Source: Macrotis lagotis
Taxonomy: Eukaryota; Chordata; Mammalia; Peramelemorphia; Peramelidae
Length of the DNA stretch: 64,000 nt
Assembly: GCF_037893015.1 (NCBI RefSeq)
Contig: NC_133666.1
Coordinates: forward strand, 4,214,239-4,278,238
Reading direction: 5' to 3'
In this document: positions 3,920 to 29,905 of the stretch, piece by piece
How positions within the stretch are numbered: the stretch's first letter is position 1
How the letters are laid out: the number at the start of each line of letters is the position of its first letter
The notes under the pieces: model-generated
What the model was told of the DNA's origin: nothing
What the model saw: only the letters and a program-made list of their open reading frames with translations
The model's database searches: none
Made by a program: the position numbers and the translations under genes

Positions 3920-3921
<2 letters not shown>

Positions 3922-7140: not shown

Positions 7141-7206
7141 TATGGGACTTTAGATCATTCTCTTAAACTGAGAGTTTTAGTTTTCCCCTTCTTTAAAAGA
7201 CAGATC

Positions 7207-7372
7207 TGGGGCAGCTAGGTGGTGCAATGGATAGAGCACTGGCCCTGGAGTCAGGAGTACCTGAGTTCAAATCCGGCCTCAGACACTTAATAATTACCTA
7301 GTTGTGTGGCCTTGGCAAGTCACTTTACCCCATCGCCTTGCAAAAACCTAAAAATAATTAAATAAAAAATTA
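7207..7372 (+). mobile_element. tRNA-derived marsupial SINE, plus
   Basis: Complete copy: head GGGGCAGCTAGGTGGTGCAA, B-box GAGTTCAAATCC, middle TTAATAATTACCTAGTTGTG, tail CTTGCAAAAACCTAAAAATA ending in A-rich repeats. Internal Pol III A and B boxes are recognisable. It lies 125 bp from an inverted copy (7497-7662). Confidence 0.95.
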
Positions 7373-7496
7373 ATTCTCCTATATTTTTATTTTAAAAGTC
7401 AAGGAATGAATTATAGAAACATTAACTCTATGATGGCAAAGTTTAAAGACAAGACAACATATCAAAATTTCTGGGATGTAGCTACAGTAGTCTTTT

Positions 7497-7662
7497 GGGT
7501 ATTTTTTTGTTTTTAGGTTTTTTCAAGGCAAATGGGGTTAAAGTGGCTTGCCCAAGGCCACACAACTAGGTAATTATTAAGTGTCTGAGGCCGGATTTGA
7601 ACTCAGGTACTCCTGACTCCAGGATTGGTGCTCTATCCACTGTGCCACCTAGCCGCCCCTAC
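7497..7662 (-). mobile_element. tRNA-derived marsupial SINE, minus
   Basis: Reverse complement of the same family, from the T-rich tail (TTTTTTTGTTTTTAGG) to the reversed head CACCTAGCCGCCCC. Together with 7207-7372 it forms an inverted pair with a spacer of about 125 bp. Confidence 0.95.
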
Positions 7663-7679
7663 AGTAGTTCTCAAAAGAA

Positions 7680-9420
7680 AATCATATTCCTGAAAATATA
7701 CATTAACAAAATGGAAAAAAGCAAGGACTAATGGCCCAAACATGCAATTTTTAGCACAGAAAAAGGAATCTTGGCAATTAGAAGTAAAATAGATAAAGCG
7801 TAAAAAAAAAAACCCTACAGAACTGATCAACAAAATGAAAAACTGGTTCATGGCAAAGTCTATAAAATTTGATAATGCCTTAGCTAATTTAATAAAATGG
7901 AGGAAAATAAAATTATCAACATAAAAAATGATCAAGGAACAATCACAGTTAAAAGGGAGTAAAAGAATAATCAAAACTTACTATATGCCTTCATATGCCC
8001 CCAAAACTGAAAATTTTAAAGAACTGGAGAATTATCTACAAAAATATAAAATATACAAATTAACAGAACATGAAATTGAGATCTTAAAAAACTAGAGATA
8101 TTAGAAAACTTAAGAACTTCCCATCTCCAATTACTTGGAAATAATGAACATCATCATCATAATGAAGATAATGATAGTGGCGGCATTAATCATTAATATA
8201 TTATTATATAATATAATTATTGTAAATAATGTAATTAATATATTTTATAATAATAGTTCTTCCAAAAATGAAATTGTAAAGGAACTAAAGGAACCTGGGA
8301 TAGACAATTTTACTAGTGAATTCTATTAAATTTTTCTATGAGAATTAATAACTATGTTACACAAATTTTTATCAAACATTGAGAAAGAAAATAGTTCATT
8401 AAAATCCTTTTAGGGAATAAATGGTGTATGAATATTGAAGTAGAGGAAGGATACAGCAAAACCTGGGAATTATAGATCAAATCACTAGTGAAGAGGAAAA
8501 GGGACTGGACTTGTGATTTCATTAGTCTAGGAAACAACCAAGTGAAGAAATTCTATCTATAAATGCAGGTTGACATTTTCTCAGCAACTTGCCAAAGGTA
8601 ACACGGGTCACCTTTGAACCCAGGTCTTCTTGGCTTTCAGACCAGCTCGTTATCTACAATCTCATACTGTCTCTCAAATAATGGATATCAATTCAACCCT
8701 TTTACATAAGATTCTAACAAAAAGGCTTCACTGCCATGTCCATAAATATATTCACTAAGAATAGGTTAGATTTATACCAATAATGATTCAATTCTAGAGA
8801 AAAAATTTATAATATTAATAATATGAAAAACAAAACACCTCAAGCTACATAATCATACAAAGATTTAGAAAAATCTTTGGCAAAATATATCATTTGTTCA
8901 TGCTAAAAAGTTAAATTAAATTAAAATAAAAACATTACAAAATCTAAGCATGGAAGAGTCATTTACTAAATGATTTAAAAAGTATACATCGAAAACTTAA
9001 ATTTAACATTCTTTGAAATGGGGAAACACTAAATAATTTACCCACAAGGACATAGTTTAAGACTGGCTGCCTCCTTTTCCCCACTGCTGTTTGGCATAGA
9101 TGACAGCAATCGCAAGATGATAAAAGAAAGAATTTAAAGCATCAGTATAATCAACAAGGAGAAAAGCAAACCTACTTTCAAATGACACAATGGCTTAGTT
9201 AAAAGACTCCAGGGAATCAGCAAAGAAACCATTTGAAACAATTAGCAGTTTAATTAAAGTTCCAGTATACAAAATAAATCTACAAAAGTTATAGTATTTT
9301 TTCTAAAGCAATGACAAATCCCAGGAGGAAGTAATAGTAAGGAAAATCTCATCAAAATAAATACAAGATTTTGTTGACTATACTTCTTTGTTACGAGAGG
9401 TTCTTGACTAGGGATGGGGT
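7680..9420 (+). mobile_element. Old, heavily decayed L1 ORF2-like LINE
   Basis: Plus-strand frames give L1-like fragments: a motif around KEPGIDNFTSEFY near 8283-8327, corresponding to the PGPDGFTSEFY region of L1 ORF2, and later tracts matching the region after the RT catalytic site (AAATCCCAGGAGGAAGTAAT near 9315). Stops, small deletions and a SINE-derived patch at about 8570-8680 interrupt it. It looks older than the copy at 1-2530. The interval 9420-9820 is AT-rich and unassigned apart from the (TA)n. Confidence 0.7.
8570..8680 (-). repeat. SINE/MIR fragment inside the L1 relic
   Basis: CTTGCCAAAGGTAACACGGG then TTTGAACCCAGGTCTTCTTG is the reversed B-box region of a marsupial or MIR-type SINE. 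Both ends are eroded. Confidence 0.55.
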
Positions 9421-9650
9421 GAGTAAGTTCTATGACTACAAAAAATAAGAGAGAAGAAAATAAATAAAAGCACATCAATGAAAGCTTTGAGAAAACAGTC
9501 TTTCAGAAGAACAATAACCATGGTAATGCCTGCATACTTTAAAGCTGTATATAATTTCATATGCAATCTTTTTTATGTTCTTTGGGTATGGAAATAAAAT
9601 TGCATATTGACTATCAAATTCATAATGTTTAACTTTTATTATACATACAT

Positions 9651-9654
<4 letters not shown>

Positions 9655-9696
<42 letters not shown>
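9655..9696. repeat. (TA)n microsatellite
   Basis: About 20 consecutive TA dinucleotides, preceded by short CATA repeats. Confidence 0.95.
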
Positions 9697-9700
<4 letters not shown>

Positions 9701-9819
9701 ACTATATTGTTTTAAATTGACTGGAAAATGAATAAAATATCTAAGAGTCCAATTACCTAGGCATGATCAAAACTTATAGGACTAGAATTACGGAACATTC
9801 TTTAAGAAAATAAAGGCTG

Positions 9820-10617
9820 AATCTCTGGCTTCTCAGACTCTCCCCTACCTGCCATGTTGACTCCATTTGGCTGGCCCCCTAGTCAAAACTTTAAACTGCA
9901 GGCTAGTAACTGAGTTCTGGGTCAAAGTTCGGACTCAATTTTGACTCGCAGGAATTATATGACTTTTTCACTGACCAGAATTTTGAGGTGATGTCCAATG
10001 GACCACCTGATTTCTTCACCATCCTCTCCTCTTGCTGGGCTCCAGGGTCCAGACTTTTGGATCTGACCAGGCCCTTGAACCTGATGGACACCCTGGAAAG
10101 ATAGGATAATATTGCTCCATTGTGGCAGAGGACGGCACTGATTTGGTGGATAGCTTGGAGCTGGAAAGAGAACAGAAAGAATTGAAGATCTCTGATTATA
10201 ACAGCTCAGCCCCTTCAATAAAATCATTACACCAAAAGGTCCCAGTCCTGGTTCTTGAACCTACAGTGAGCTGCTAGGATGAGCCCTTACAGCTTCTGAA
10301 ACACCTGGAAGACTCACTTTTATTTGATGAAGCCCTTTGACTCACTAGCTCCAGAGACAGACTCTATGCAATGGATGATTCCGAACTAGTGGGTAAAGAG
10401 GACAAGCTATCTCTTGGAGACTGCCCAGAGGAGCTGAAGGCTACGCTTCCAGTCCTCCAACCTCGAGGCATCCAGGAGAACTGTGTACAAGCGCCTCAGC
10501 ATGGACAGGGAATTCCTGAGGGAGGGAGATCTGAGGCCACCCAGTCCATTCCCTATAGTGTCTCAGAAAGAACTCAGATGCTGGTACCCCACTGAAAGGA
10601 TCTATGAGGCAGACCCT
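9820..10617 (+). pseudogene. BAZ2A: BAZ2A (TIP5) processed pseudogene, 5' piece with internal deletion
   Basis: BAZ2A is the large subunit of the NoRC nucleolar remodelling complex. Translation with frameshifts follows its N-terminal region in order: an EFW-x-K patch near 9916, GLNFDSQELYDFF near 9930-9968, DQNFEVMSNGPPDFF to about 10010, VAEDGTDLVDSLELE near 10128-10172, and MDDSELVGKEDKLSLGDCP at 10371-10427. The sequence then jumps to a region well over 1,000 residues further on: EELKATLPVLQPRGIQE (about 10428-10478), YKRLSMDREFLREGDLRP, and WYPTERIYEADP at 10582-10617. Joined exons, an internal deletion, stops (for example near 10276) and shifts indicate a dead retrocopy. The last segment is where the 29-bp satellite begins. 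The matching 3' piece is at 27012. The alignment is from memory of the family and was not computed. Confidence 0.85.
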
Positions 10618-12400
10618 CTCTGAGAAGAGCAATGAGGTAGACTCCCATTCAAAGGACCTCTGAGGCAAACGCCCCACTAACAGGACTCGAGGCAGACAAC
10701 CACTGAAAAGAACTATGGGGCACATTGCCACTGAGAGGACCTATGAGGCAGACCCCCGATGAGAGGACAAATGAAGGAACCCCCACTAAAAGAACCTATG
10801 ATGTAGACCCCGCAGCGAGAGGGTCTATGAGCCAGACCCACCCATATACCTATTGAGAGGACCTATGATGCAGATGCCCCCTCTGAGAGAACCTACTGTG
10901 TAGAACCCCAACTGGGAGGACCTATGAGGCAAAGTGACAGTGAGAAAGCTGAGTCAGATTGCTCGCAGACTCCTCCTGGGAGCACCCATGAGGTAGACCC
11001 CCCCCCTAAATCCCCAGAAAATGGATCTATGAGAAAGATCTATAAGGCAGACTCCCACTGAGAAGATCTATGAGACAGACCCCCAATGAGAGCATTGATG
11101 GTGCAGACTGCTGCTGAGAGGAGCTATGATGCAGATCCTCTGTGAGAGGAATATGATGCAGATGAGGCAACGAAAGAACCTAAGGGTGCAGACCCTCTGC
11201 TAAGAGAACCTATAAGACAGACCCCTGGCTGAGAGAGCCTATAATGCAAAACCCCAGCTATGGGGAATTATGCAGAATTCTGCAAATTCGGAGGCAAAAC
11301 CTCACCAAGAAGAGTAAGGATGCAGAACACCCACTGAGAGTGTTTGAGAGAATTTGAGGCAGAACCATATTGACGACCTATGATGTAGAACAGCTGCTAA
11401 GGGGGCTAAAGAGGCGGCCTCCCGCTGACTGGAACCCGCTATGAGGATGTTTGGTGCAGACCACTGCTGAGAGAACCTATGATATAGGCCCTATCTGAGA
11501 CAGGCAGAATACCCACTAAGGCGACCTATGAGGCAGACCTTCTCTGAGGGAACTTATGATGCAAATGGCACACAGAGAGAACCTACGATACAGATGACAC
11601 ATGGAGAGAACCTATGATGCAGATGACACAGAGAGAATTGTGATGGAGATCCTCTGCTGGGAGAAGCTATGATGTAGACAGAAAACCTATGGTGCAGAAC
11701 CCTTGGTATGGTAACCCACAAGGCAGGATCCTGCTGAGTGTATCCATGAGGCAAGCTATCAGTGAGAGGACTAAGGATGAAGAACTCACACTGAGAAAAA
11801 TTTGGGGGGCAGATCTGGAATGAAAGGATGTATGATCCAGAACACATACTAAGGGGACCCATGAGGAAGACACCTGATGAGAGGATTGATGCTGAAGACC
11901 ACCACTGAGAGGACCTATGATGCAAATCCGGTCTGAGAAGAAGATACAGATGACATGCTGAGAGAACCTATGATTGATGAAGACCCACGCAGATCCTTCA
12001 CTTGGAGAAACTAAGATGTAGAACACACACAAAGTGGACCTATGAAGCAGACTCCTGCTGAATGGACCCATAACACAAACCCTTAGTGAGAGGACTAAGG
12101 ATGAAGAACCTACACTAAAATAAATATATAGGGGCAGACCTGAGTTAAAAAGGACCTGTGATACAGATGACAGGCTGAGAGAATCCATGATGCAGAGCTC
12201 CTTCTGAGAGAACCTAAGAATTAGAACTCCCCCATAGAAAAGATATAATATAGAACCCCTGCTATGGGGACCTATGAGGCAGACCACTACTGAGAGGATC
12301 GATGTTTCAGACTGCCACTGAGAGAAACTCTGAGGCAGATGCCCTAGGAGAGGACCTATGATGCTGATGACAGAACCTATGCTGTAGAACCCATGCTGAG
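10582..12400 (+). repeat. 29-bp satellite, left edge, seed-like monomers
   Basis: Tandem monomers of about 27-31 bp with the wording CCCACTGAGAGGACC followed by TATGAGGCAGAC or TATGATGCAGAT. The first unit is the BAZ2A codon string for P-T-E-R-I-Y-E-A-D-P at 10588-10617. As 29 is not a multiple of 3, the expansion is not coding. Monomers are strongly diverged from one another. Long minus-strand open frames here (such as 11667-12287) are chance readings of the periodic sequence. Confidence 0.9.
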
Positions 12401-15400
12401 AAAAAAAAATGATTTAGACTCCCTGCTAAGAGAACCTATGATGCAGAACCCCTGCAGAGGGACCCTATAAAGCAGAACCCGTGTTGAAAGAATCTATGAT
12501 TTAAGTCTCCTGTTGAGTACAAAGATTTAGACTCCCTGCTGAAAGAACCTATGATATAGACCCAGTTCTGAGAGAACCTCTTATGTAGAACCTCTATTGA
12601 GAAAGCTATGCTTTAGAACTCCATGCTGAGAGAGCAATGATTTAAAACACCTGATGTAGGGGCATTTAGGTGGTGCAGTGGAAAGAGCATCAACTTGGAG
12701 TCAGGAGGACCGGAGTTCAAATCCCTCCTCAGACATTTAATAATTACCTAGCTGTGTGATCTCAAGGAGTCACTTAACCCCATTGCCTAAAATAAATAAA
12801 TTAAAAATTAAAACAACACCTGCTGTAAGAATCGATGCTCTAGATCCCTTGCTGAGAGAACCTATGAAGCAGATCTGATGAGAGAACACTGATATTGACC
12901 CTCTGGCTGAGAAAACCTCTAAATTAGAACTCCTGTGAGAGAACAATTATTTAGACTCCCTGAGGAGGGAAACTATGATGCAGAACTCCTGTTGAGGGAA
13001 CCTATGAAGCAGAACATTTACTGAAAGAACCTATGATTTAGGCCCCCTGTTGATAGAAGCTAAGGTTGCAAACCCCCTGCTGAGAGAAACTATGATTAAG
13101 AACCCCTGCTGAGAAAACCTATGATTTAGACCACCTGTTGCTAGAACCTTTGATATAGAAGTCCTGCTAAGAAAATGAATGATGCAGAATCACTGCTGAG
13201 AGAACCTAACATTTAGACTACCTGTTGAGAGAACCTATGATACAGAGCCCTGATGAGAGAACCTAAGATGTAGAACCCTTGTTGAGAGAACAATGATTTA
13301 GAAACCCTGCTGAGAAAATTTATAATGCAGAAAGCCTGCTGAGAGAACCTATGAATGAGACCTCCTGCTAGGAGAAGCTTTGGCTTTTGACACCCTGATG
13401 GGAGAACCTCTAATTTCATACTCCAAGAGAACCTATGATGCAAAACCCAGTTGAGAGAACCTATGATGCAGAAGCCCTGCTGTGAAACCAATAACTTAGA
13501 CTCCCCACCTGAGAGAACCTCTAATTTAGACTCTGCTGAGCAAATGAATGATATATAGACTCCAGACTGAGAGAACCTCTGATATAGACCCCCCCCTGCT
13601 GAGAGAACCTAGGCTATAAACCTATTGGAGAAAGAACCTATGAATGAGGGCACCTGCTACCAGAACCTTTGATTGTGTCCCCCTGCTGAAAGAAGCTCTG
13701 ATTTAGTACTACTGCAGAGATAACTAAAGATACAGACATCCTGCTAAGAGAACCTAAGATATTGACAACCTGCTGAGAGAACAATGTCCAATACCCACCT
13801 GCTGAGAGAACCTATGACTTTCATACCCTGAGAGAACCAAAGATATAGACACCTTGCTGAGAGAACCTGATTTAGTACTCCTCCTGAAAGTACCTATGTT
13901 GCAGAAACTCTGTTGAGTAAACCTCTGATCTAGAACCCCTGCCAAGTGACCTGATTATGTAGAACCCCAGTGGGAGAACAATGACTTAAACCCCTTGCTG
14001 AGAGAGCTTATGATGTAGATGCCATGCTGAGAGAAGTTATGATGCAGAACCTTTGCTGAGAGAACCCATGATGCAGAACCCTTTCTGAGAGATCCAAAGA
14101 TGCAGAACTCCTGCTGAGAGAACCTACAAATTGGAGACCCTACTACAAAAATCTCTGATGTAGAACTCCTCCAACTGATATAGATCTCCAGCTGAGAAAG
14201 CCTATAACTGAGGCCCCCTGCTATCAGCACCTATGATTCTGAGCCCCAGCTGAGAAAGCCTCAGATTTAGGACTCCTGATAACAGAACCAAAAATACAGA
14301 CAGAACTAGATACAAAATAACTTCTGCTGAGAGAACCTATGATTTAGACACACAATGAGAGAATCTCAGATTTGGACCCCCTGCCAAGAGAACTCTTGCT
14401 AAAACCACCTGCTGAGAGGACCTAAGATATAGACCCCTGATGAGAGAACCTATAATTTAGACATCATTCTGAGAGAACGTCTGAAAAACGCCCCCTGTTG
14501 AGAGAACCAAAGATATAAACCCCCTGCTGAGAGAACCTATTAATGAGGCCCCCTTCAAGAGAACTTGTGGCTTTTGACACTCTGCTGAGAGAACTCATGA
14601 ATGAGGTCCCCTTCTGGTAGCACTAATGATTATGTCTCCCTTCTGAGAGAACCTATGATGCAGAATCCCTGCTGTGAGACTAATGACTAAGACTCCCCCT
14701 CAACTGGGACAACTCCTGAGAACCTAAGATGAAGAACCCTTGTTGAAAGAACAAAGATTTAGACACTCTGCTGAGAGAACTTATGATACAGAAACCCTGT
14801 TGAGATAATCTATGATTTCAATTCCATGCTGAGAGAACCTCTGATACCTGCTGAGAGAACAATGTCCAATACCCCACTTCTGAGAGAACCTATGATTTAG
14901 ATCCCCGGATGTGAAAACTTATGATTTAGATGCCCTGCTTCAAGAATTTCTGATTTAGAACTCCAACTAAGAGATGAATGTTTCAGAACTCCTGCTAAGA
15001 GAACCTAACAGTTAAACTACCTGTTGAGAGAACCTATGATGCAGACCCCTGATGAGTGAACCTAAGATGAAGAACCCCTGTTGAGAGAACAAAGATTTAG
15101 ACATCCTGCTGAGAGACATTATGATTCAGAATCCCTCTTGAGAGAACCTATGATTTGGATCTCATGCTGAGAGAAACTCTGACGCAGACTCCTTGCTGAG
15201 AGAACCTATTAATGAGGCCCCCTTCTAGGAACACTTATGATTATGACCACATGCAGAGAGAACATCTGATTCAGTACTCCATCTGAGAGAACCTGTGATG
15301 CAAAACCCAACTGAGAGAACCAAAGATATAGAACCCCTGCTCTGAGATAAATGACTTAGACCCCCTTCCTGAGAGAACCTCTGATGCATATCCTCTGCTG

Positions 15401-16067
15401 AGAGAATCTATGATGCAGAACTCCTACTAAGAGAACCTAAGATGCAGAACCCCTGATGAGAGAACCTATGAATTGGAGACCCTGCTACGAAAACCTCTGA
15501 AACAAAACTCCTCCTGAGAGAACCTATGATGTAGACCTTCTGCTGAAAAATCCTATGAATGAGGTCACCCACTAGAAGCACTTAGTATTCTATCCCCTGG
15601 GTGAGAGAACCTTCGATATTGACCCCCTGCTGAGAGAACCTGTGATTTAGAACCCCCTGCTGAAAGAACCTCTGATATATACTCCCTGCTGGGAGAACCT
15701 AATCTATAGACCACCAGATGAGAGAACATATGATTTAGACCCCAGGCTGAGAGAACCTCATATAGCCCTTCTGCTGAGAGAAACTAAGATATAGACTCCC
15801 TACTGAGAGAACTTATGATTTAGACCCCCAGGCTGAGAGAGACTCTGATAGAGACCCTCTGCTAAGAGAACCTAAGATATCAACCCCCTGGGGAGAAAAC
15901 CTATGAATGAGGCCCCTACTAAGAGCACCTATGATTATATCCCTATGCTGAGAGAACCTCTGATATTGACCCCCTGCTGAGAGAACCTATGATGCAGAAT
16001 ACAGTTGAGAGAACCTGTGATGCAGAGCCCGTGCTGCAAGAATCTCTGATTTAGATTCTCTGCTGAG
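12400..16067 (+). repeat. 29-bp satellite, core subtype (left half)
   Basis: The monomer shifts to the derived form CCCCTGCTGAGAGAACC plus TATGATTTAGAC (modal period 29). GAGG has become GAGA, and GGCAG is mostly replaced by TTTAG. Units are more uniform than at the edges but still vary by substitutions and 1-5 bp indels. It is interrupted by a SINE at 12659-12814 and ends at the solo LTR. Confidence 0.9.
12659..12814 (+). mobile_element. Marsupial SINE inserted in the satellite
   Basis: Head GGGGCATTTAGGTGGTGCAG, B-box GAGTTCAAATCC and A-rich tail. Flanked by a 13-bp target duplication AACACCTGATGTA (12646-12658) and AACACCTGCTGTA (12815-12827), one mismatch. The duplicated sequence is satellite, so the array predates this insertion. 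Confidence 0.92.
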
Positions 16068-17137
16068 TGTGGGGGGTCCAGCCTCCGCGGGGTCCTTGGA
16101 ACTTGACAGGAGGGATAGAGTCGGCAAAATGAGTTGAGTCAAAAAGTGGGTAAAGGCAGGAGCAGGTTGACTGTCAGCTGCTTAGATTTATTTTTATAGT
16201 CTTAGAATCATATGAAACAAGCAAACTAAAATCATTTCCTTGGTTACAAAAGTATACAATTTTCATCATTAATCACATAGTTCATATGGTTACAAGTTAG
16301 ATCATGTAGTGGTTACAAGTGTGACTATCAATCATGTAGTTAATTTTCTTGTCCCTGCTCAGACCGTGATGACCTCAACCTGCCTGTTGCCTAGTTTGCT
16401 GCTGCATAGTAAAGTTATTGATTAAACAGAACATTCCTTAGAATAATCTTTGATATAATTTGTTTAATGGAATGCTTCTATGTTTTTGTACCGCATATGT
16501 AATGTTTTCGATATGCTCCCTTGACAGCCTATAGTGAGGGTAGCTATGTTTGTCCACCTGTCTGTTGATTCCTTCAATAACTAATTTTCCTTTCAGCCCT
16601 TGTTGGTAGACGCTACGGTTTCTATGACTTTTTATTCTTTGCCAATTAACTTAGGCTGTTAAGAGTTCACATATTGGTTACCTATACTAACTATTCTCTC
16701 ACCATCTTTATCATATATTCCTGTGTATGATAAGGGGGGCAAAACTGTTAATTTCCCTGGAATTCTATCTGACCCATCTTGTATCTGGTTTCCCTATATA
16801 TATTCTGACATCTCCCTGGAACTCCCAGTGCTGTGTCTTCCAAAGATTTCATAATGTTGAAGCCTTTTGTATGTCTCAGGGAGAGGCACTCCTGTTAAAT
16901 TTGGACAGAGTTCACAATCTGTTTTATTCAAGGAATTTCTCAGAAATCCTTCCTTTATAGTCATTCCACTATTAGGATGAGTAAGTTTTGCAATCAATAA
17001 TAGACCTCTAAATATGGGTATGCATGGAATCCCTATATATATTGAAGAAGGAAATGTTGTTCCATCAGGCAGTGTGACTGCCCTGAGTCTTCTTGCTGCG
17101 ACTGTGTCAAACAGCTTAGAGACCCTGGCTCCCAACA
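16068..17137 (-). mobile_element. Solo LTR of a class II (ERVK/IAP-like) endogenous retrovirus
   Basis: A 1,070-bp unique block bounded by TG...CA (TGTTGGGAGCC...CCCCCCACA when read on the minus strand) and by the 6-bp duplication GCTGAG at 16062-16067 and 17138-17143. The minus-strand start resembles IAP-type class II LTRs, and a 6-bp duplication is usual for that class. On the minus strand TATAAAAATAAA lies about 120 bp before the 3' end, at about 16199-16188. No internal viral genes are present, so the provirus was lost by LTR recombination. GCTGAG occurs in most satellite units, so the duplication alone is weak proof; removing the block nevertheless restores a regular monomer. Open frames at 16727-17177 are not viral genes. 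Confidence 0.85.
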
Positions 17138-20100
17138 GCTGAGCAAACAAATGATTTAGATAGTAGGCTGAGAGCACCTATGATTTGGACCCCATGATGT
17201 GATAACAATGGGTTAGACTCCTTGCTGAGAAAACTTATGATTTAGATGCCCTGCTCCAAGAATCTCTGGTGCAGAACTCCTGCTAAGATAATGAATGTTT
17301 GAGAACCCCTGATGAGAGAACCTCTGATGCAGACCCCTGATTAGTGAAGGTAAGATGAAGAACTCCTGTTGAGAGAACAAAGATTTAGACACCCTGCTGA
17401 GAGAACTTATGATGCAGAAACCCCATTGAGAGAACCTATAATTTAGATCCCATGCTGAGAGAACCTCTGATACAGAACCCCTGCTGAGAGAACGTAAGTT
17501 ATAGAACCCTTGTTGAGAGTACTTCTGATTTAGTACTCCTCCTTAGAGAGCCTCGGATCTAGAACCCCTTGCTGAGAGAACCTATGTAGAACCCTGGTGA
17601 GAGAACAATGACTTAGACCCTTTGCTGAGTGAGCTTATGATTTAGTTGCCATGCTGAGAGAAGTTATGATGCAAAATCTTTGCTGAGAGAACCCATGATT
17701 TAGACCCATTATTGAGAGAATCGATGATCCCATGCTGAGAGAACCTAAGATAAAGACTCCCTGCTACGATAACCTATAATTTAGACCACCGGTTGAGAGA
17801 ATCGAAGTTGCAGAACCTCCATGAGATAAAAATGACATAAACACTTTGCTGAGAGAATCTATGTTTTAAACTCCCAGGTGAGAGAAATTATGATAAAGAC
17901 CCCTTACTGGGAGAATCTAGGATATGGACACCCTGCAGAGAGAACCTATGATTTAGACCCCATGTTGAGAGAACCTATGAATGAGGCCCTATGATAGGCA
18001 AATCTGTGGTTTTTGACATGTGATAAGAGAACCCATGAAAGAGGCCCCTGATAGAGACACTTATGATTATGCCCCCTTGATGAACCTCTGATATTGATGA
18101 CCAGATGAGAGAAACTAAATAGACCACCTGCTGACAGAACCTATGTTTTAGACGCCATGCTAAAGAACCTATGATAAAGACTCCTGCTGGGAGAATCTAA
18201 GATATAGATCTCCTTCAGGGCGAACCTATGATTTCCACCCCATGCTAAGAGAACTGAAGAATGAGGCCCACTGCAGGGGGAATCTGTGGTTTTTGACATC
18301 CTGCTGAGAGAATGCATGAATGAGGTCTCCTGCTAGTAACACCTATGATTGTATCCCCATGCTGAGAGAACCTCCAATATAGACCACCTGGTGGGAGAAC
18401 CTAAGGAATGGACCCTGTGCTGAGAGAACCTATGATTCGTAACCCATGCTGAGAGAAACTCAGAGATAAACTCCCTACTGGGAAAACCTAAGATATTAAT
18501 CTCCTGATGAGAGAACCTATGATATTGACCCCTTACTAAGAGAAGCTATGATAAAGACCCCCCCCCCCCGCTGGGAGAATCTAAGATATAGACCACCAGC
18601 AGAGAGAACCTATGATTTAGTCCCCATGCTAAGAGTACCTATGGATGAGGTCCTGTGCTAGTAGCACCTACAATTATGTTCCCATGCTGAGAAAACCTCT
18701 GATATTGAACCCCTGCTGAGAGAAACTAAGGTATGGTACCCCTGTTGAGAGAAAATATCATACATACTCCCTGCTGAGAGAACCTAAAATATAGACCTCC
18801 TGAGGAAAGAACCTGTAGTATAGACCCAATACTGAGAGAACCTATGATTTAGATCCCATGCTAAGAGAAACATTGAATGAGGGCCTCCCTGCTAGAAGAA
18901 TCTGTGATTTTGGACACCCTTCTGAGAAAAACCTATGAATTAGACCCCCTGCTAATAGCACCTATGGTTATACCCCTGTGATGAGAGAACCTAAGAAATT
19001 GATTCCATGATGAGTAAACCTGTGATTTAGACCCCATGCTGGGAGAACCTCTTATATAGACACCCTGCAGAAAGAACCAAAGATATGGACTCCCTGTTGA
19101 GATAACCTATGATTTAGACCACATGCTGAGAGAACCTCTGATATAGAACCCCTGCTAACAGTACCTCTGATATAGACCCTCTGCTGGTAGAACCTAAGAT
19201 ATAGACACCATGCTGAGAGAACCTATGATTTACACCCCATACAGAGGGAGCGTAATATATTGACCCCCTGCTGAGAGAATCTCTGATAAAGACCCTCTGG
19301 TTGGAGAATGTAAGATATAGACCCAGAACAGAGAGAACCTATGATTTAGACCCCATGCTGTGAGTACCTATGAATGAGATCCCCTGCTAGGAGAACCTGT
19401 GATTTTTGACACCCAGCTAAGAGAACCTATAAATGAGGCCCACTGCTAGAAGCACCAATGATTATGTTCCCCTTCTGAGAGAATCTCAGATATTGACACC
19501 CTGCTGAACGAATCTAAGAGATATGCCCACTACTGAGAGCCTATGATTCAGAATCTCTGCTGAGGGAACCTCTAACATAGACTCCCTGCTGGGAGAACCT
19601 GAGATATAGACCCCTGATTAGAGAACCTATGGTTTGGGCCACACGCTGAGAAAACATCTGATATAGACGTCCTTCTGACAGAACCAAGGATATATACCCC
19701 CTTGCTGAAAGAATCTCTGATTTAGTACTCCTCCTGAGAGAACCTATAATGCAGAAACTATATTGTGAGCATCTATGACCTAGAACCCCTGCTGAGAGAA
19801 CCTGAGACAGAATTTAGCTGAGAGAACCATTGATGCAGAACTCCTGTGTTAATAACCTGATTTGCAGAACTCATGCTGAGAGAACCCTTGATTTAAACCC
19901 ATTATTGAGAGAATCGATGATTTAGACTCCCTGCTGAGAGAACCTTAGTTCTGCAGAACCCCCATGAGATAACTTTGATTTAAATCCTTTATTGAGAGAA
20001 CCTATGATTTAGATTACCTGCTTAGAGAAGTTATGACAAAAATTTCCTGATGGGACTGAAAAGGGAACCCATGATTTAGACCCCATGCTAAGAGAACCTA

Positions 20101-22460
20101 GGAATGAGGCCCCAAGCTAGGAGAACCTATAATTATGTCTCAAAGCTGAGAGAACCTCTGATATTGACCCACTGTTGAGACATCCCCTGCTGAGAGAACC
20201 TCTTATATCAACCTCCTGCTGAGAAAACCTAAGCTATAGACACCCTGCTGAGATAATCTATGATTTAGAAAGCATGCAGAGAGAACCTTTGATTTAGACC
20301 CTATGCTGTTTTAGACCCCATGTTCAGAGAACATCGGATATTAACACCCTGCTGGGAAAAGCTAAGATATAGACTGCCTCATGAGACAACCTCTGATATA
20401 GGAACCCTGCTAGAAGAATGTGAGATATAGAACCCATACAGAGAGAACCTCTGATTTAGATCACATGCTTAGAGAACCTCTGATATTGACCCCCTGTTGA
20501 GAGAACCTCTGATTTACATCCCATGCTGAGAGAACCTCTTATATGGACCTCTTGATGAGAAAACTTAATATATAGACTGCCTGAAGAAATAAGCTATGAT
20601 TTGGACCCCCTGCTGAGAGAGCCTCTGACAAAGAACCCTTGTTGGAAGAACCTGAGATAGAGAACCCAAGCTGAGAAAACCTATGATTTAGACTCCATGC
20701 TGAGAGAACCTCTCATAGTGACCAACTGTTGAGAGATTCCCCTGCTGAGAGAACCTATGATTTACATCCCATACTGAGAGAACCTCTTATATCAACCTCC
20801 TGCTGAGAAAACCTAAGATATAGACTCCCTGTTGATACAATCTATGATTTAGACACCATGCTGAGAGAACCTCTGCTATAGAAACCCTGGTGGTAGAATC
20901 TAAAAAACAGACCCTCTGATGAGAGAACCTATGGTTTAGACCCCAGGCTAAAAGAAACACTGATATTGACCCCTGCAGAGAGATCCTATGATAAAGACCC
21001 ACTGCTGGGATAATCTAAGATATAGACTTCCAATAGAGAAAAACTATGATTTAGAACCCAAGCTAAGAGAACCTATGAATGAGGCTCCCTACAAGGAGAA
21101 TCATTTGTTTTTGAAAACCTGCTAAGAGAACATATGAAAGAGTCCTAATTCTAGAAGCACCTATGATAATGTCACTGTGATGAGAGGAACTCTGACAATA
21201 ACTCCCTGCTGACAGTACCTAGGGTATAGACTCCCTTTTGAGAGAACCACTGATATAGAAGTCCTGTGAGTAGAACCTAAGATATAAACCTCATGCTGAG
21301 AGAACCTATTATTTGAACCGCATGCAGAGAGAACTTCTGATATTGATGTCCTGTTGAGAGCACATATGATAAAGACCCCCTACTGGAAGAATCAAAATAT
21401 GGACACGCTGCTGACAGAAACTATGATTTAGACCCCATAGTTGGAGAACCTGTGATTGAGACCCCCTGCTTGTAGGGCTGATTATTATGTCCCTGTGTTA
21501 GGAGAACCTCTGATATTGAGCCACTGTTGAGAGAACCTATTAATTAGAACCCCTGTAGACTGAACCTCTGATATAGACTCCCCACTGGAAGAACTTAAGG
21601 TATAGACCCCTAGATGAGAGAACCTATGATTTGTACCCCACACAGAAACATTCTCCCTTCTAGAGAATCTGTGATGAAGAACCACTGCTGATAGAATCTA
21701 AGCCACAGACCCTCCAGCAGTGAGAACCTATGATTTAGACCCCATGCTAAGAGAATCCATGTAAGAGGCTGCCTGTTAGGAGAAACAGTGGTTTTTGATA
21801 CCTTGCAAAGTGAACCTACAAAAGAGGCCCTCTTCTAGAAGCATATATGATTATGTCCCCATGATGAGAGAACCTCTGATATTCATTACATGCTGAGAAG
21901 AACTAAGGTATAGATTCCCTATTGAGAGAACCTATGTTATAGACCCCATGTTGAGAGAACCTCCGTTATAGAACTCATGTTGGAAGAACCTGAGATTTAA
22001 ATCCCATAATGAGAGAACCTATGATTTAGACTGCATGATGAAATAACCTCTGGTATTGATCCCTTGTTGAGAGATCCCCTGCTGAGAGAACCTATGATTT
22101 AGACCTGATTCTGAGTGAAAGACTGCTATTGACCCCCTGCTGAAAGAACCTATGATTTAGACCCCTTGCTCAGAGAAACTCTGATGCTGAGCCCCTGTGG
22201 AGAGAACCTAAAATATAGACCCCCTACTTAGAGAACCTCAAATGCAGACCTCCTGCTGAAAGAACAGTGATTTAAACTCTACTGAGCGAGCCTATGATAT
22301 AAAACCTGTGCTGAGAGATCGTATGATGCAGTGCCCTAGTTTAGCGAACCTTTGATTTAGACTCCATGCTCAGAGAACTTCTGCTTTAGACCTCTTGCTG
22401 AGAAAGCCTATGATATAGACCCCCTCATGAGAGAACGTATGATTTAGACCCTGTGGTGAG
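17138..22460 (+). repeat. 29-bp satellite, core subtype (right half)
   Basis: Continuation of the core monomer (GCTGAGAGAACCTATGATTT), with frequent GATATTGACC, GATATAGACC and AATGAGGCCC variants. The variants recur in short runs, for example AATGAGGCCC followed by TTTTTGACA near 18000, 18270, 18880 and 19390. This suggests higher-order units of several monomers that have since diverged. A C11 run lies at about 18550. Confidence 0.88.
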
Positions 22461-23876
22461 AGCAGCAATGATGCAGACCATCCACTGAGACAATCAATGA
22501 TGCTGATCCCCCGCTAAGGGAACCTTTAAGGCAGATTCTCTCTGAGAGGAAAGATAGTTCATATAGTCTGATAGAATCTTTGATGGAGAACCCCTGTGAG
22601 AGGACCTATGATACAAATCACACACTGAGGGAACCTATGATGTAAATCTCCTGCAGAGAGTACTAATGATGAAGAACCCTCCCCCCAACTGAGAGAACTT
22701 TTGAGGCAGACCCTTGCTCAAAGGACTTATGATACAGAACACCCATTAAGGAGACTTATGAGGCAGACTCCTGCTGAGTGGACCTATGAAACAGACTCTC
22801 ACTGAGAGGATGGATGACGCAGAGGATTTGTGATGCAGACCCTGTCTGAGAGGAGCTATGATGCAGAGTGCCTGCTGAACCTATGATGCAGAACTGCCAC
22901 TGAAAGAGGATATGAGGGAGGACGCCTGCTAGGAGAACCTATGAGATAGACCCTGTTGAGAGGATTGATGGTGAAGACCACCACTGAGAGAAGTTGTGCT
23001 GCAGACACCCTCTGAGAGGACCTATGAGGAAGAATCCCTAATATGAAGACCGATGAGGCAGGCTCCAGTTGAGAGGATTGATGGTGCAGACCACCACTGA
23101 GAGGACCTATGATGATGATCCCCTGTGAGAGGACCTATGATACAGATCAGGCACTGAGAGAACCTGTGATTCAGACACCCAGCTGAGAGCAAAAGTATTA
23201 TACAGAACCCCTGCTGAGAGAACCTGTGATGCAGATCTTTTACCAAGAGAACCAGTGAGGCAGAAGTCCCACCATGAAGGCAGGCTCCAACTGAGTGGAC
23301 CTATGAGGCAAACCCTCACTGGGAGGGCAAAGGATGCAAAACATTCACTGAGAGAAGTTTTGAGGAAGATGACACTGAAAGGACCTATGATGCAGAACAC
23401 AAGAAAAGGGGACCTATGAGGCAGACTCCCACTGAGAGGACCTATGATGATGGTCCCCTTTGAGAGAACCTTTGATACAGATGATGCACTGAGGGAACCT
23501 ATGATTAAGAACGCTTACTTATAGAACTCATGCTGCAGACACCCCCCTACTGGGAGAAACAATGATTCAGAACTCCCACTAAGGGGACCTATGAGGCAGA
23601 TCCCTGCTTAGAGGATCGATGGGGCAGATACCCTAGAAGGAGAATATGATGTAGATGACACACTAAGAGAACCTATAATCTAGACCCCTTGCTGAGTGAA
23701 TCTATGAGGCAGACCCCCTATTAAGAGAACCAATGATGCAGACCTCCTGTTGAGAGAACATATGATATACAACCCTGCTATGGGGAATTGTGAAGCAGAA
23801 TTCCATTGAGTGTACCTATGAGGCAAATACTCACTGATAGGACTAAGGACACTGAACACTGACTTAGAGAACTTTT
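22460..23876 (+). repeat. 29-bp satellite, right edge, seed-like monomers
   Basis: The monomer reverts to the form seen at the left edge (CCACTGAGAGGACCTATGA followed by GGCAGAC or TGCAGA). The last 18 bp (23859-23876) form the left target duplication of the HAL1-like insertion. Confidence 0.88.
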
Positions 23877-26730
23877 TTTGTACAAGTAGATCTTTTCCCC
23901 CTTTTTTCTCTTATTTTTTTAAATTTACTTTTAAATTTTTCTTTAATTTATTTACACATTATTAAAATAGTCTTAAGAGCAAACATAATACCCCCTCCCC
24001 CACAAAAATATAAAGCTTCATGAGAAATAAAAGAAAGAGAAAAAAAATGTGTTACAGTCTATGTTCCGATACCATAGGGCTTGGAATATTCTTTATCATA
24101 AGTCTATCAGAGAAGTGACTTCCATATTTTTCTGCAGTTGCTGTTGCTGATTGATTGGAATTCCCTTCATCCATTCCTCCCCACTACCATCTATTATATT
24201 TTCTCTCTCCTTTCACTCTGTCCTTCTTCAAAAATGTGCTGTGGGGCAGCCAAGTGGCACAGCAGACAGAGCACTGGCCCTGGATCCAAGAGGTCCCAAG
24301 TCCACATCTCCCCCCAGAGACCCAGCAACCGCCTGGCCCCGTGGTCCTAGACAGGACTCACAATCCCACCACCTTACAAAAATAAAAAAGAAAATGTTAT
24401 ATCTGACTATCCTCTCCTATGATCTACCCTCTCCTATATCACCCACTTCCTCCTCCCCTCCCCCTGTCCACCTTCTCTCCTTTTTCCTTCTAGATATCTA
24501 TACCCTATTAAGTGCATATGCTGTTTCCTCTCTGAACCATTTCTGATGAGAATGAAGGCTCCCTCATTCCCCCTAGCCTCTCCCCTTCCATATCATTGCA
24601 AAAGCTACATGAAATATCTTTTATATGAAATATCTTAGCTTGTTCTACCTCTCCTTTCTCTTACTCCCAATACAATTCCCTTTCACCCACTGACTCCATT
24701 TTTACCATATATTATATCTTTAAATTCAGTTCTTTCCTGTGCCTCATCTATAAAAGCTTTTTCTACCTGCTCTATTAAATGAGAAGGTTTATATGAATAT
24801 AATCAGTATCATTTTTTCATGCAGGAATACATGCAGTTCATCATTATTAAGTCCCTCACAATTTACCCTTCTCATCCTCCCTCTCTATGCTTCACCTGAG
24901 TCCTATACTTGAAGATCAAACTTTCTGTTTAGCTCTGGTCATTTCCACAGGAACATTTGAAATTCCCCTGTTTCATTGAAAGTCCATCTTTTCCCCTGGA
25001 AGAGGATGTTCAGTTTTGCTGGGTATTTGATTCTCGGTTACATTCCAAGCTCTTTTGCCTTCTGGAATATTATATACCAAGCCCTACCAGCCCTTAATGT
25101 AGTTGCTGCTAAGTCCTGGGTAATCATGACTGCAGCTCCATGATATTTGAATTGGGTTCTTCTGGATGCTTGTAATCTTTTCTCTTTTGACTTGGGAGTT
25201 CTGAAACTGGGCTATAATATTCTTGGGGGTTGTTTTTTTGTTTTTGGTTCTCTTTCTCAGGGAGATCAGTGGATTCTCTCAATTTCTATTTTATCCTCTG
25301 CTCCTAGAATATCAGAGAAAATTTTCTGGTTGAAATTCTTTAAAAAATTAGGTCAAGGCTCTTTTCCTGATCATGACTTTCAGGTAGCCCAATAATTTTT
25401 AAATTATATTTTCTGGATTTTTTTTCCAGATCAGTTGTTTTTTCAATGAGATATTTCACATTTTCTTCTAGTTTTTTATTCTTTTGGTGTTGAATTATAG
25501 GGTCTTGATTTCTCGCAGAGTCATCAGCTTCCTTTCGTTCCATTCTACATCTGAAGGATTTGTTTTCCTCAGAGAGCTTTCTTTTCTCCTTTTCTATCTG
25601 TCCAATTCTGTTTTTGAAAGTATTCTTCTCTTCAACAACTTTTTGAACTGTTTTATCCATTTGACCTAAATTGGTTTTCAACTGGTTATTTTCTTGAGCA
25701 TTTTTCTGTATCTCCTTGACTAAGCTGCTGACTTCATTGTCATGTTATTCCTGCATCTCTCTCATTTCTTTTCTCAACTTTTCTTCTATCTCCCTTACTT
25801 GATTTTCAAAATCTTTTTTGAGAACTGACATAGTCTGAGCCCAACTTCGATATTTCTTTGTCTTTATAGTCTTTGGATACAGAAGCTTGGACTTTCTCAT
25901 CTTCAGATTGAGTATTTTGATCCTCCATGGGACCAAAGTAATTTACTATGGTCAGGTTCCTTTTTTTCTGTTTACTCATTTCCCCAGGCTGTGCCTGGTT
26001 TGTGTGTGCTTCCTGAGATTTTGAATGTTATTGGGACAACCCATCAAGGACCACAGTATGTGAGACTGACTGTTCTCCTGGTGTATTGAATGACCACTAG
26101 TGTACCCCTCTGTCCCAGGCTATGGGGGGCTCCCTGCTCTATAGGGGGCACAGACTGTGACCAGGATCTGAATGTGGTCAAAGCCCCAGAGTCCTGTCCC
26201 AGGGACAGAGGACAGATCTGAGCAGTCTCCCTCCACTCCCTTACTTTCTGTGGGCTGAGGACTCAGGGCACAGCTGCCAGCCTGCTGGGGGGCTCTGTGA
26301 ACCTGCTTCCATTTCCAGGATCTAGGCTGCACTGGAAGCTGTGGAGGGCCACACTGGCCTGGGCTTCATGTTCAATCTGGCAGAGGTCTTCCTGTTGATC
26401 TTCCAATTTGTGCTTGGTGCTTCCTGGGGTGCAGGTCAGGAAATTGCTTCTGCAGCTAGAAGCCGGAGCTCCCAGGTACCCTGGGGCTGTTTCTGGGAGG
26501 CTGAAGTTCCTTCACTCAAGTGCCCTGCTGCCCCTCCAACCCTGTGGAACAGAGCCTTCCCACAATTTCCCAGGCTACCTTGGGCTGGAGAATTGCCTCA
26601 CTGGATATTTTTGTGGGTTCTGTTCTCAAAAATTTAGTTAGAGTCATAATTTTAAGGTTTTTGAAATATTTTGGAGAGATCATCTAGGAGAGAATGTACT
26701 CCTGCCACCATCTTGGCTCTACCCCACCCC
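23877..26730 (-). mobile_element. HAL1-like (half-L1, ORF2-less) retrotransposon, full length
   Basis: A 2.85-kb element on the minus strand with an 18-bp target duplication, CTGACTTAGAGAACTTTT, at 23859-23876 and 26731-26748. The 5' end is intact, starting GGGGTGGGGTAGAGCCAAGA near 26730. A 5'UTR of about 0.75 kb is followed by an ORF1 with coiled-coil-rich parts at 25936-25745 and 25681-25340, then an RRM/C-terminal part broken by stops down to about 24960. There is then a 3'UTR of about 1.1 kb and an A-rich end. No reverse transcriptase is present between ORF1 and the 3'UTR, which is the HAL1 layout; such elements are known in marsupials and rely on L1 proteins. ORF1 is frameshifted, so this copy is dead. 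An internally deleted L1 is the alternative. Confidence 0.8.
24242..24392 (+). mobile_element. Diverged tRNA-type SINE nested in the HAL1-like element
   Basis: GGGGCAGCCAAGTGGCACAG head, AGAGCACTGGCCCTGGA, and an A-rich tail (AAAAATAAAAAAGAAAA). The middle differs from the other SINE copies (CCCCAGAGACCCAGCAACC), so this is a different subfamily. It splits the HAL1-like 3'UTR. Confidence 0.75.
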
Positions 26731-27016
26731 CTGACTTAGAGAACTTTTGATGGAGGCCCATGCTTAAAGGACCTGTGATACAGAATCCCTGCTAAGGTGA
26801 CCTAGGAGACAGACTCCCACTGAGAGGAAAGATGGTGTAGACCACTACTGAGAAGCTCTGATGCAGATACCCTCTTCTCAGAATCCATAATTCAGACAAC
26901 CCATTGAGATCTATGAGGCAGGCAAAGCCCTTCTGAGAAGACCTATGGTGCAAACTCCTGCTTAGAGGACCTATGAGACAGACCCCCACTGAGATAACCT
27001 ATGATTCAGACCCTCA
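26731..27016 (+). repeat. 29-bp satellite, terminal block abutting BAZ2A
   Basis: About ten seed-like monomers (ACTGAGAGGA, TATGAGACAGACCCCC) between the HAL1-like insertion and the BAZ2A 3' piece. The last monomer, TATGATTCAGACCCTC, runs directly into BAZ2A coding homology. The junction lies in a short stretch (GACCCT) that fits both sequences. Confidence 0.88.
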
Positions 27017-28975
27017 TGAATCCTGAGCTAGTTAGTGGCTTCAGGAGCATCATCAAAAATCCCATGGACTTCTCTACCATGAGGAAATGGCTCAATCTGG
27101 ATATGCATTCTAACTCTGAGGAGTTTGCTGTTGGTGCTCTTTTGGTTTTTGATAACTGCCAGACCTTACATGAGGATGATTCTAAGGTGGGCAAAGCTGA
27201 GTACCTCATGAGTAACTTATTTGAGAGCCTATGGGAGGAGATTTATCAGAGAAAACAGGCCAATCTGTAAGGTGAGGTGATAAGACAGGAGCAGGACAAT
27301 CTGGGCCTACACTCTCCTCCAAAACCCTGCCATTCTTGCCTCCTGAAGCTGCCTGGAGTCTACACTCAAGAATCAGATAAGTCCTGAACTTGGACTTCAC
27401 CTTTGGTCAGCTTCCTGTACCCTCATTTCCCCAATTTCCCACTTTTTCCTCTTCCTTTCCCTCTTATAATTTTTTTTCTTTTTAGTTTATATTCTAATTT
27501 AAAAAGGGAGGGTAGAAATACTTTCCTTCCTCTTCCTCATCTCTCCTGCCCCAGTACTGTGTGGCATTTAATGATAGAAGTGTATGAAACTGAGAAACAA
27601 TCTATACATGTGAGGACCTGTAGGCCAGTAAAGTGGACCTGACTCCCAAGTCTGTAAAACTTGATATGGGGCCCTGGACATGCTGCTTCCATGTCCAGTC
27701 TTTCCCCGAGTTCTTTCTTCTCCAACACTTTTTCTTCCCAGTTTCTGCCTTCCTTCCCTCATCCAGTAATATAGAACTATTATGCATGGGTTCCTCCCTT
27801 TCCTTTCTCCAAACCATTAACAAACAAAACAAAACAAGAAAGATATTTCAGAGATTTTTTTTCCTCCTTAGCCTAATCTCACCTGTACCAGTGAATGCTT
27901 CTCTTTCCTTCCTTCTTACTCTCCAGCCTTCTCTGAGGTTAGTTAGTTGGCGGGGGGTGGGGGTGGGAGTGGAGGTGGGGCAATGTCTGCTTCTAGCAGC
28001 CCTGGTTTTCTCCCCCCGCCTCCCCTCAATCCAATTCTCCCTCTTGGGAGTGCCTCAGGGACAATCATTGCTGAGTTTGGCCAGGAAGATTTTGGACACA
28101 TTCCTTCCTAACCAGAAGGTTAATTGACAGGCCTCCCCTCCTTGGGGGTGATGCTGCATGCTTTGGGTTTTTGTCCTTTTCTTCTTTCACCCCATTCCTC
28201 TTCATTATTTTGAAAAAAATTCAAGGAGCAGTTTTCACCCAATGGACATTTTCTATGCTCCTCTTACGATGTCTGTGATTCCTCCTTTCCACCTCAGAGT
28301 ATGTTTAGATTTCAAACTGCAGTTCTTTTCCAGAATCTCTGATCCTTTCATTCTTGTCTCTTACACACAGGAAGGACCTAAAGCTTTCTATGGCTTTTAG
28401 TTGTGTTACTGCTTCCTGGCCTGTCTTACTCCTTAGCTCTGGACAGGGTTACCAGGAAAAGCAGAATGGCTGAGGGCAGTCTCTGACATGTGAGCCCATT
28501 CTGTAAGAGGAAAGCTGCCATCTGCCCCAGTCAAAACCATGCTCCCCTGCCCAGCCTTGGCTCCTCCCATCAGAGATTTTGGGTACTTGCACTGGGGAGG
28601 AGGCCCTGGGCTCAATAGAGAGCCAAGTCAGATTCCTCCAAGGATCTATTGGTAGGGAGGAGCCAGTTGAGGTAGAACCATAATCCCAGATATGCTCTAC
28701 CAGCTGCATTGGATAACCACTGAGAGACTTGAAAGGAGAGTAGGATTACATTCTCCCTGCCCTTTTACTTCTCTTCTTTTCTATCTTATTTCTCAAGTTG
28801 CCTTTTCTGTCAGATAAATCTCAGAAATTATTTAAAAAATTTCTTTACTTTAAATGAGGTGAACTGAAGACTATTTGAATTGACTGTATTAAATATAAAG
28901 TATTTATATTTTATCTAAAATGTGCTGTAACATTTGTGTTAAATGTTTGGAATTCTAGATGAGGCTTCTTCCCAG
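27012..28975 (+). pseudogene. BAZ2A: BAZ2A processed pseudogene, bromodomain end and 3'UTR
   Basis: From 27017 the frame reads NPELVSGFRSIIKNP, MDFSTMRKWL, SEEFAVGALLVFDNCQT, EDDSKVGKAEYLMS and ends WEEIYQRKQANL, with the stop at 27268-27270. This is the C-terminal bromodomain of BAZ2A up to its natural end; the acetyl-lysine-binding region around FDNCQT is intact. Sequence after the stop is T/C-rich non-coding DNA consistent with the BAZ2A 3'UTR, at least to about 28975; I cannot place its poly(A) end. Everything between the seed segment at 10617 and this point (PHD finger, start of the bromodomain) is missing and replaced by satellite. The ATG at 27016 is not a real start. A G-rich tract with quadruplex potential lies at 27951-27979. 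Confidence 0.87.
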
Positions 28976-29504
28976 TCCTAAGTCACACACCTCATTCCCC
29001 CTCAAAGGGTAATGTTTTTCCTAGTATAAAAGATCCTGAATTAATTTCGAACTTATTGAGAGAGGGGAAAAATGGTCTGGAATCTTTGGTGCTCTTTGTA
29101 TTCTCTTCCTTCCACCCAAATTCCCAAGGCACTCTTGAGGGGGTAGGCTGGCTTGAAATTTGGGTGGCCTACCTATCTGGTTGGGGCTAAAGTGGTCAAC
29201 TTCCCACTTTTCCTTCTGCATTCATTCTTAACAGTTTCAAGTATTGGGGTAGGCATATTAAAAATCTGCTTCATCCCCTTTCACTATAAATCTTCCTTTC
29301 TCAGAAATACTAGTAAAAATTATTTCCCAATTTACTACATTTCTTTTGATCTTGGTTACAGTGGTTTTGTCAACGAGAAAGCTTTTTAAGTTAATGTAAT
29401 CAAAATGATCTAGTTTGTTTTTAATGATGTTTTACATCTCTTCCTTGGTCATAAACTGCTTCCCTTTCCATAGATCCCACAGGTCATTCCCTTTTTAAAA
29501 AATT
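28976..29504. other. Unassigned non-coding interval, possibly more BAZ2A 3'UTR
   Basis: No coding homology. The first part may be UTR. The part from about 29340 (GTCAACGAGAAAGCTTTTTA, then CTTGGTCATAAACTGCTTCC) reads like a marsupial interspersed repeat that I cannot name. Confidence 0.4.
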
Positions 29505-29655
29505 GATAATAATGGAGGTAGTAAATCGCACTGGATTTGTTGTTAGAAGACTCAAATTCTAATATTTGCTCTGCTGGTTATCATAGGTCACCTAGGTCAT
29601 TTTAACCTTCTTGGCCTCAGTTTCTCCATATACAAATGAGAGATTTAGATTTGAG
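29505..29655 (+). repeat. MIR-like relic
   Basis: GGATTTGTTGTTAGAAGACT, CTCTGCTGGTTATCATAGGT, then CTTGGCCTCAGTTTCTCC: the MIR order. Confidence 0.65.
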
Positions 29656-29671
29656 AACTCCTACGTTTCCT

Positions 29672-29905
29672 GAAGGCAGTTAGGTATCTCAGTGGTTTAG
29701 ATCACTGGGCCTGAAATTAGGAAGACTTGAGTTCAAATCCAGCCTCTGATTATTAATAGCTGCGTGACCTTGGGCAAACCTCTGTTTTCCTTAATGCACT
29801 AAAGAATGAAATGGCAAACCACTTCAGTATCTTTGCCAAGAAAACCCATGGACAGTATTGGCATGCTAAAAGTCCATGAGACCAACTAAATTCCTTTCCA
29901 GCTCT
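29672..29905 (+). mobile_element. MAR-type marsupial SINE, plus
   Basis: GGCAGTTAGGTATCTCAGTG head, GAGTTCAAATCCAGCCTC B-box, GTGACCTTGGGCAAACC, then the longer body AATGGCAAACCACTTCAGTA. More diverged than the short SINEs. The stretch 29905-30100 before the second array is unassigned. Confidence 0.8.

Follow-up and report, generated by a model that had tools for sequence, protein, structure and literature searches.

The window, that is, the whole 64,000-nucleotide stretch of Macrotis lagotis DNA analysed here (C9:4214239-4278238), contains a BAZ2A-derived sequence in two parts, a long tandem array that lies between them (array 1), and a second tandem array (array 2) that adjoins the 3' side of the BAZ2A sequence, 0.8 kb beyond it. 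All these features fall within a segment that has an inverted counterpart elsewhere on C9, here called copy 2. The coordinates are collected in Table 1.

Table 1. Features of the window, in window positions unless a contig is named.
Feature	Position	Strand	Remarks
Segmental duplication	2530..44872	+	inverted repeat at C9:about 37466758-37514091
5' part of processed BAZ2A pseudogene	9869..10615	+	intron-less and 5' truncated, with an internal deletion near 10425
Seed (in-place BAZ2A exon sequence), which forms the first array 1 monomer	10588..10615	+	25/28 to parent C2:289050990-289051017
Array 1, 5' edge zone	10616..12228	+	BAZ2A-like monomers, 28 bp common
Array 1, centre	12229..22450	+	derived 29-bp monomers, CCTGCTGAGAGAACCTATGATATAGACC type
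SINE-like repeat within array 1	12642..12800	+	in both copies
LTR-like insertion, 1.07 kb	16067..17132	+	TG...CA ends, 6-bp target duplication GCTGAG, copy 2 without it
Array 1, 3' zone	22451..23870	+	return of BAZ2A-like monomers
Non-array insertion, about 2.9 kb	23871..26718 (boundaries approximate)	+	mostly common to both copies; SINE-rich
Last array 1 monomers before BAZ2A resumes	26719..27008	+	
3' part of BAZ2A pseudogene	27019..29281	+	bromodomain codons and 3' UTR
Array 2	30109..41884	+	29-bp unit, 397 copies, 94% matches; one unit in duplicate, C9:37471529-37471557

Positions 27010-28900 of the window match three places in the genome: themselves, C9:37479029-37480897 on the opposite strand (92%), and C2:289052965-289055061 in two pieces (87% and 77%). 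The place on C2 holds exons and introns and is taken as the parent BAZ2A gene. In a sequence search against solved structures, the parent PHD exon reached E 2.3e-31 to BAZ2A vs 3.4e-25 to BAZ2B, and the bromodomain piece of the window a best E of 2.8e-29 vs 6.9e-19; on these values the copy derives from BAZ2A and not from BAZ2B. The window aligns to the parent at 9869-10615 and 27019-29281, which bears out the proposal of the initial annotation that the array sits between two parts of one BAZ2A pseudogene. All four introns spanned by the aligned parts are absent, with GT and AG present at the joints in the parent, and the window copy is a processed BAZ2A pseudogene, truncated at the 5' end. 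The K2P distance of its 3' part to the parent is 0.183 (0.197 for copy 2). Neither a poly(A) tail nor a target-site duplication of the retrocopy was found on reading the ends, the 3' end of the window copy being lost at 29281; copy 2 tracks the parent for 40 bases beyond this point and then passes into unrelated DNA. An extra 6.2 kb is present in copy 2 at the 3' end of the pseudogene.

Array 1 comprises 431 monomers in 12.2 kb (mean length 28.4) in the window and 759 monomers in 21.5 kb (mean length 28.3) in copy 2. The 431-monomer count leaves out three non-array stretches, one of which includes about 100 array-like bases (23767-23870). The count agrees with the roughly 425 copies proposed earlier; an identity to the consensus of 17/28 or better is reached by 405 of the 431. 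As for the 16-kb array described in the initial annotation, the interval stands and its continuity does not, as it consists of about 12.2 kb of array and three insertions. The units run head to tail and fall within the 10-100 bp range of minisatellites or locus-specific satellites. Neither unit length, 28 or 29, is divisible by three, hence neither array is a coding repeat, and a function in itself is not likely for either of them.

The parent BAZ2A exon contains CCCACTGAGAGGGCCTATGAGGCAGACC, that is, the array monomer, exactly where the homology of the pseudogene stops; the exon reads ...TGCTGGTCCCCCACTGAGAGGGCCTATGAGGCAGACCTGGCAATG... at this site. The pseudogene tracks the exon up to GCAGACC (10615), where the array starts, and in the stretch that leads up to it (10550-10615) 55/66 bases are identical to the exon. 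A monomer inside the array, at 10728-10754, is 26/27 identical to the seed site of the parent, above the pseudogene copy that remains in place (25/28). The BAZ2A codons noticed earlier at the junction are thus present, and the comparison originally made, with W-S-P-K-E-K-T-Y-E-T-D-L, can be improved, as the animal's own parent gene reads W-S-P-T-E-R-A-Y-E-A-D-L, closer to the pseudogene. Compared with BAZ2A of the same species, the seed match improves to 26/27 instead of dropping to chance. A possible likeness of the monomer to codons of C2H2 zinc finger linkers was set aside, since the in-place exon match makes that idea needless.

The sequence is short, and a resemblance between monomer and BAZ2A codons by chance deserves consideration. 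When consensus monomers were scanned ungapped, in all rotations, along both strands of 70 kb around the parent gene, the best site was the seed both for the window edge consensus (23/28) and for the centre consensus (21/28). None of 200 shuffled edge consensuses reached 23, one reached 22 and four 21; the score of the centre consensus alone was matched by 5/200 shuffles, which would be compatible with chance. The seed stands apart from random parental 28-mers, none of 1500 (two of them partly overlapping the seed region) matching the array ends as well. In particular, the seed reached 26/28 in the 5' edge, with 12 windows of 21 or more, and 24/28 in the 3' zone, with 14; the best controls scored 19 in both of these zones. 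In the centre the seed itself scored only 21, against 20 for the best control. Because monomer splitting was started from the BAZ2A seed, its phase is favoured. Units called by Tandem Repeats Finder, from which the monomer at the junction was left out, are independent of that splitting: their best local parental alignment fell at the seed site in 11/32 rows for the window and 13/28 for copy 2, compared with 0/40 shuffled units. The other rows (21/32 and 15/28), mostly from the centre, had their best matches scattered elsewhere in the parent, with scores of 22-32 in the window and 23-31 in copy 2, in a range where shuffles reached 29; scores above 29, up to 50, were obtained by 8/11 and 8/13 of the seed-site rows. 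Shuffles of the consensus scan and of these units preserve base composition only. Chance resemblance is taken as refuted by the control 28-mers and the shuffled units, and with the match also lying in phase at the joint itself we assign it a negligible probability. The array centre is linked to the seed through the monomer types of the edge.

The two ends of array 1 are closer to BAZ2A than its centre. At the 7 diagnostic sites, the BAZ2A state has a frequency of 0.41 at the ends (97 monomers) vs 0.09 in the centre (308) in the window, and of 0.42 (195) vs 0.08 (515) in copy 2; the test included 405 monomers of the window and 710 of copy 2 with at least 17/28 to the consensus, while the totals of 431 and 759, counted over almost identical zones, include weaker ones. 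Along the window array the value starts at 0.52, drops to 0.03-0.14 for the whole of the centre and is back at about 0.4 once the 3' zone is reached. Diagnostic sites are those where exon and centre consensus differ and the low centre value thus arises by construction, so that the informative part is the BAZ2A state at both ends. The zones were drawn after inspecting the profile, and when the zone labels were shifted circularly, a contrast as large as the observed one occurred in 4/404 cases for the window and 8/709 for copy 2. Unit length follows the same division, with 28-bp and 29-bp units in a ratio of 36:26 at the ends vs 60:168 in the centre of the window, and of 64:57 vs 95:280 in copy 2. 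The simplest reading is that the ends of the array are oldest and that a derived 29-bp type was amplified in the interior and re-founded it, which would be expected of unequal exchange acting mostly inside an array.

A search of the genome (3.656 Gb, 607 contigs) gave 26 matches for each of two array queries, taken from the 5' edge and from the centre, all within the two paralogous loci; these counts are lower bounds, as frequent words were skipped in DNA searches. A whole-genome scan with the derived monomer pattern, allowing 2 mismatches, returned 88 matches (35 forward, 53 reverse), all in the same two loci, and none for a control pattern. Neither the two array queries nor the derived monomer scan found a third array 1 locus genome-wide. 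Instead of the many unlinked arrays of a dispersed or centromeric family there are two loci, paralogous by duplication, and, as far as the searches reach, the results support the view that array 1 is not a widespread satellite. Both loci carry the BAZ2A pseudogene, and the older, unrelated and widespread satellite that would have undone the initial annotation did not come to light. Its central claim, that the array was born from a BAZ2A coding fragment in a retrocopy, gains support from the 26/27 seed match, the 0/1500 controls and the restriction to two loci.

Two other origins can be weighed against these data. A satellite already existing elsewhere could have inserted into the pseudogene, or recombined with it, at a short chance similarity. 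Such an event would agree with the fact that the array does not lie between neighbouring bases of BAZ2A, as it replaces about 920 nt of the cDNA, in six exon pieces, between the seed and the point of resumption. We nevertheless regard it as very improbable: no third locus was found in the genome, the 26/27 match of the end monomer covers nearly the whole unit and exceeds that of the in-place copy, and the end monomers keep parental bases at diagnostic sites. As to the missing cDNA, ATGATTCAG occurs in the last monomer of both copies and also in the parent, 32 bases before the resumption point; a microhomology joint via ATGATTCAG is possible but unproven. Displaced pieces of the missing stretch (parent 64018-65964) were absent from the matches listed for the window array (E up to 1e-4) and for the copy 2 array (E up to 1e-5, >55 bits). 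Alternatively, the tandem expansion could have started in a transcribed BAZ2A allele and then been carried into the retrocopy. The sequence is compatible with this, and the parent has one unit today; however, a 28-bp duplication would be expected to shift the reading frame of the gene, and the parent exon bears no trace of an expansion, which leaves this route with a very small probability. A seed expanded within the retrocopy is thus the origin that we retain.

The history of array 1 can be divided by means of the duplicate, which lies 33 Mb away and is ~6% divergent; each side has gained and lost sequence. The K2P distances of four non-array segments are 0.059, 0.062, 0.059 and 0.057, and with non-repeat flanks beyond the pseudogene at one divergence, window positions 2530-44872 are one side of a segmental duplication. 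Copy 2 as an allele or an assembly duplicate was rejected on account of its divergence of about 6%, its inversion, its distance of 33 Mb and its own insertions. Divergence is given as distance only, absolute dating having been dropped for want of a trusted marsupial rate. Both duplicates carry the pseudogene and array 1, so the array predates the duplication, as does the SINE-like repeat at 12642-12800, which both copies have; the LTR-like insertion at 16067-17132 is younger, being absent from copy 2. Seven colinear blocks of array 1 gave K2P values of 0.063, 0.067, 0.064, 0.066, 0.079, 0.097 and 0.068, near the flanking rate, and there is thus no sign of homogenisation or exchange between the paralogous arrays since the duplication. 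The two highest values (0.079 and 0.097) are located toward the 3' zone and lie above the flanks, and some turnover may have occurred there since. The most similar internal repeats of at least 150 bp are 78.0% alike in the window array and 85.6% in that of copy 2, a pair at 85.7% in copy 2 sitting in the SINE-rich shared insertion and not in the array; amplification of that size is therefore older than the duplication. For the same reason a recent gain was rejected as the source of the longer copy 2 array: its extra blocks predate the duplication, and it is the window copy that lost blocks. Since the duplication array 1 has mutated, lost blocks and received inserted DNA, and it shows no expansion of at least 150 bp.

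Array 2 has a different history. Both of its flanks are recognisable in the duplicate, where they enclose one single unit, which is bordered by 7-bp direct repeats TAACCAT; copy 2 here reads CCTC-TAACCATCCAGATTCTATTACAATATCCT-TAACCATATCAG, that is, one perfect unit followed by a 7-base repeat of the unit start. Genome-wide, with 2 mismatches allowed, the unit gave 294 forward matches and 1 reverse match. The array in the window alone has 294 such sites, which accounts for all the forward matches, and the remaining reverse match, at C9:37471529-37471557, is the one unit of the duplicate. The 395 monomers fall into only 12 distinct types, 3 of them seen once, and the commonest type is identical to the single unit of the duplicate. 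Runs of types are repeated block by block, so growth proceeded partly in multi-unit blocks. Array 2 probably expanded after the duplication, and in the window copy only. An alternative is an array that existed before the duplication and collapsed in copy 2, since recombination between units would also leave a single unit. It is improbable: at 6% divergence, many more monomer types would be expected of an array that predates the duplication, and the unit in copy 2 is identical to the commonest type of the window. Array 2 as a relative of array 1 was rejected, since the best site of its unit in the parent region is not the seed.

We hold with high confidence the scenario in which a BAZ2A retrocopy seeded array 1, the array was arrested before the duplication, and array 2 followed later. 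A BAZ2A mRNA would have been reverse-transcribed and inserted, truncated at its 5' end, on what is now C9; the introns are lost from the copy, and the insertion machinery is presumed. The copy would at first have been free of any array. A 28-bp exon stretch in the dead copy would then have been tandemly duplicated, probably by slippage or misaligned repair, with the CC dinucleotides that border the seed in the parent sequence as the proposed site. Array 1 grew to hundreds of units, and about 920 nt of downstream BAZ2A cDNA were lost. Unequal exchange in the interior would have re-founded the middle on the derived 29-bp variant, leaving the BAZ2A-like monomers stranded at both ends, where they are found. 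Large expansion had ended by the time roughly 40 kb were duplicated in inverted orientation at a distance of 33 Mb, and array 1 has since mutated, lost blocks and taken an insertion. Array 2 would have arisen later, in the window copy only, from a single 29-bp unit between the TAACCAT repeats. Both arrays fit tandem duplication between short direct repeats followed by unequal exchange or slippage; the growth pattern is visible in the monomers, and the first duplication is presumed. A more tentative and, in our view, rather doubtful reading regards the duplicated segment as a satellite nursery, where some local factor twice expanded a single-copy stretch to hundreds of units. Replication pausing, late repair and open chromatin would be candidates for such a factor, which would have acted on units of 28-29 bp and 29 bp, 3 kb apart, at different times. 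If this were true, the birth, growth, arrest and rebirth of satellites could be read at one locus.

It is seldom known from which sequence a satellite started. For array 1 the single-copy ancestor survives twice, once in the parent gene, which is still alive, and once as the in-place first monomer, and this allows the direction of change to be inferred at each site. The duplication divides the history of the array into a before and an after, and it adds, for array 2, a paralogous site with one unit, a control that array 1 lacks. One segment thus holds an old and a young satellite, the single-copy seed of each being still readable, and makes it testable where arrays grow (in the middle or at the ends), when growth stops, whether paralogous arrays exchange and whether short flanking repeats are needed.

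The D4Z4 unit is on the kilobase scale. D4Z4/DUX4, a retrogene-containing tandem array (PMC12376486), resembles the present locus in that retrogene and array occur together, but every D4Z4 unit holds the retrogene, whereas the array 1 unit is a 28-bp scrap inside one retrocopy. In a model outlined in PMC2820488 (Haber and Louis 1998; Taylor and Breden 2000, cited therein), short direct or non-contiguous repeats give rise to minisatellites through slippage or recombination. Our arrays share with this model a unit of tens of bases that arises from one copy and, for array 2, a seed flanked by a 7-bp direct repeat; they differ in that the array 1 seed borders only CC in the parent and is a protein-coding exon in a retrocopy. 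The same paper mentions human minisatellites with an origin in LTR-like retroviral sequence or at the 5' end of Alu. There too a tandem array is nested in dispersed reverse-transcribed DNA, but the seed is a transposable element, while that of array 1 is cellular coding sequence with its parent gene still present. Likewise, section 4.1 of PMC12692304 derives satellites from transposable elements, rDNA spacers and shorter tandem repeats, which has in common with array 1 a new array formed out of pre-existing sequence; the sources in that section are repeats, and it names no protein-coding exon or pseudogene. Among the papers listed in searches of the open-licence literature on satellite and minisatellite origin and on BAZ2A pseudogenes, none reports an array that grew from a coding exon of a processed pseudogene, and with the bilby genome included none reports this locus or a BAZ2A-retrocopy satellite. 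Transposable elements, LTRs, Alu and rDNA spacers are already known as sources of arrays, and array 1 is an unusually well documented case.

Two further tandem repeats are present in the window. One, at 49784-50710 and outside the duplicated segment, has a 135-bp period (267-bp double unit) and units 72% alike; the other is a short array of 2.5 copies of an 81-bp unit at 56849-57050.
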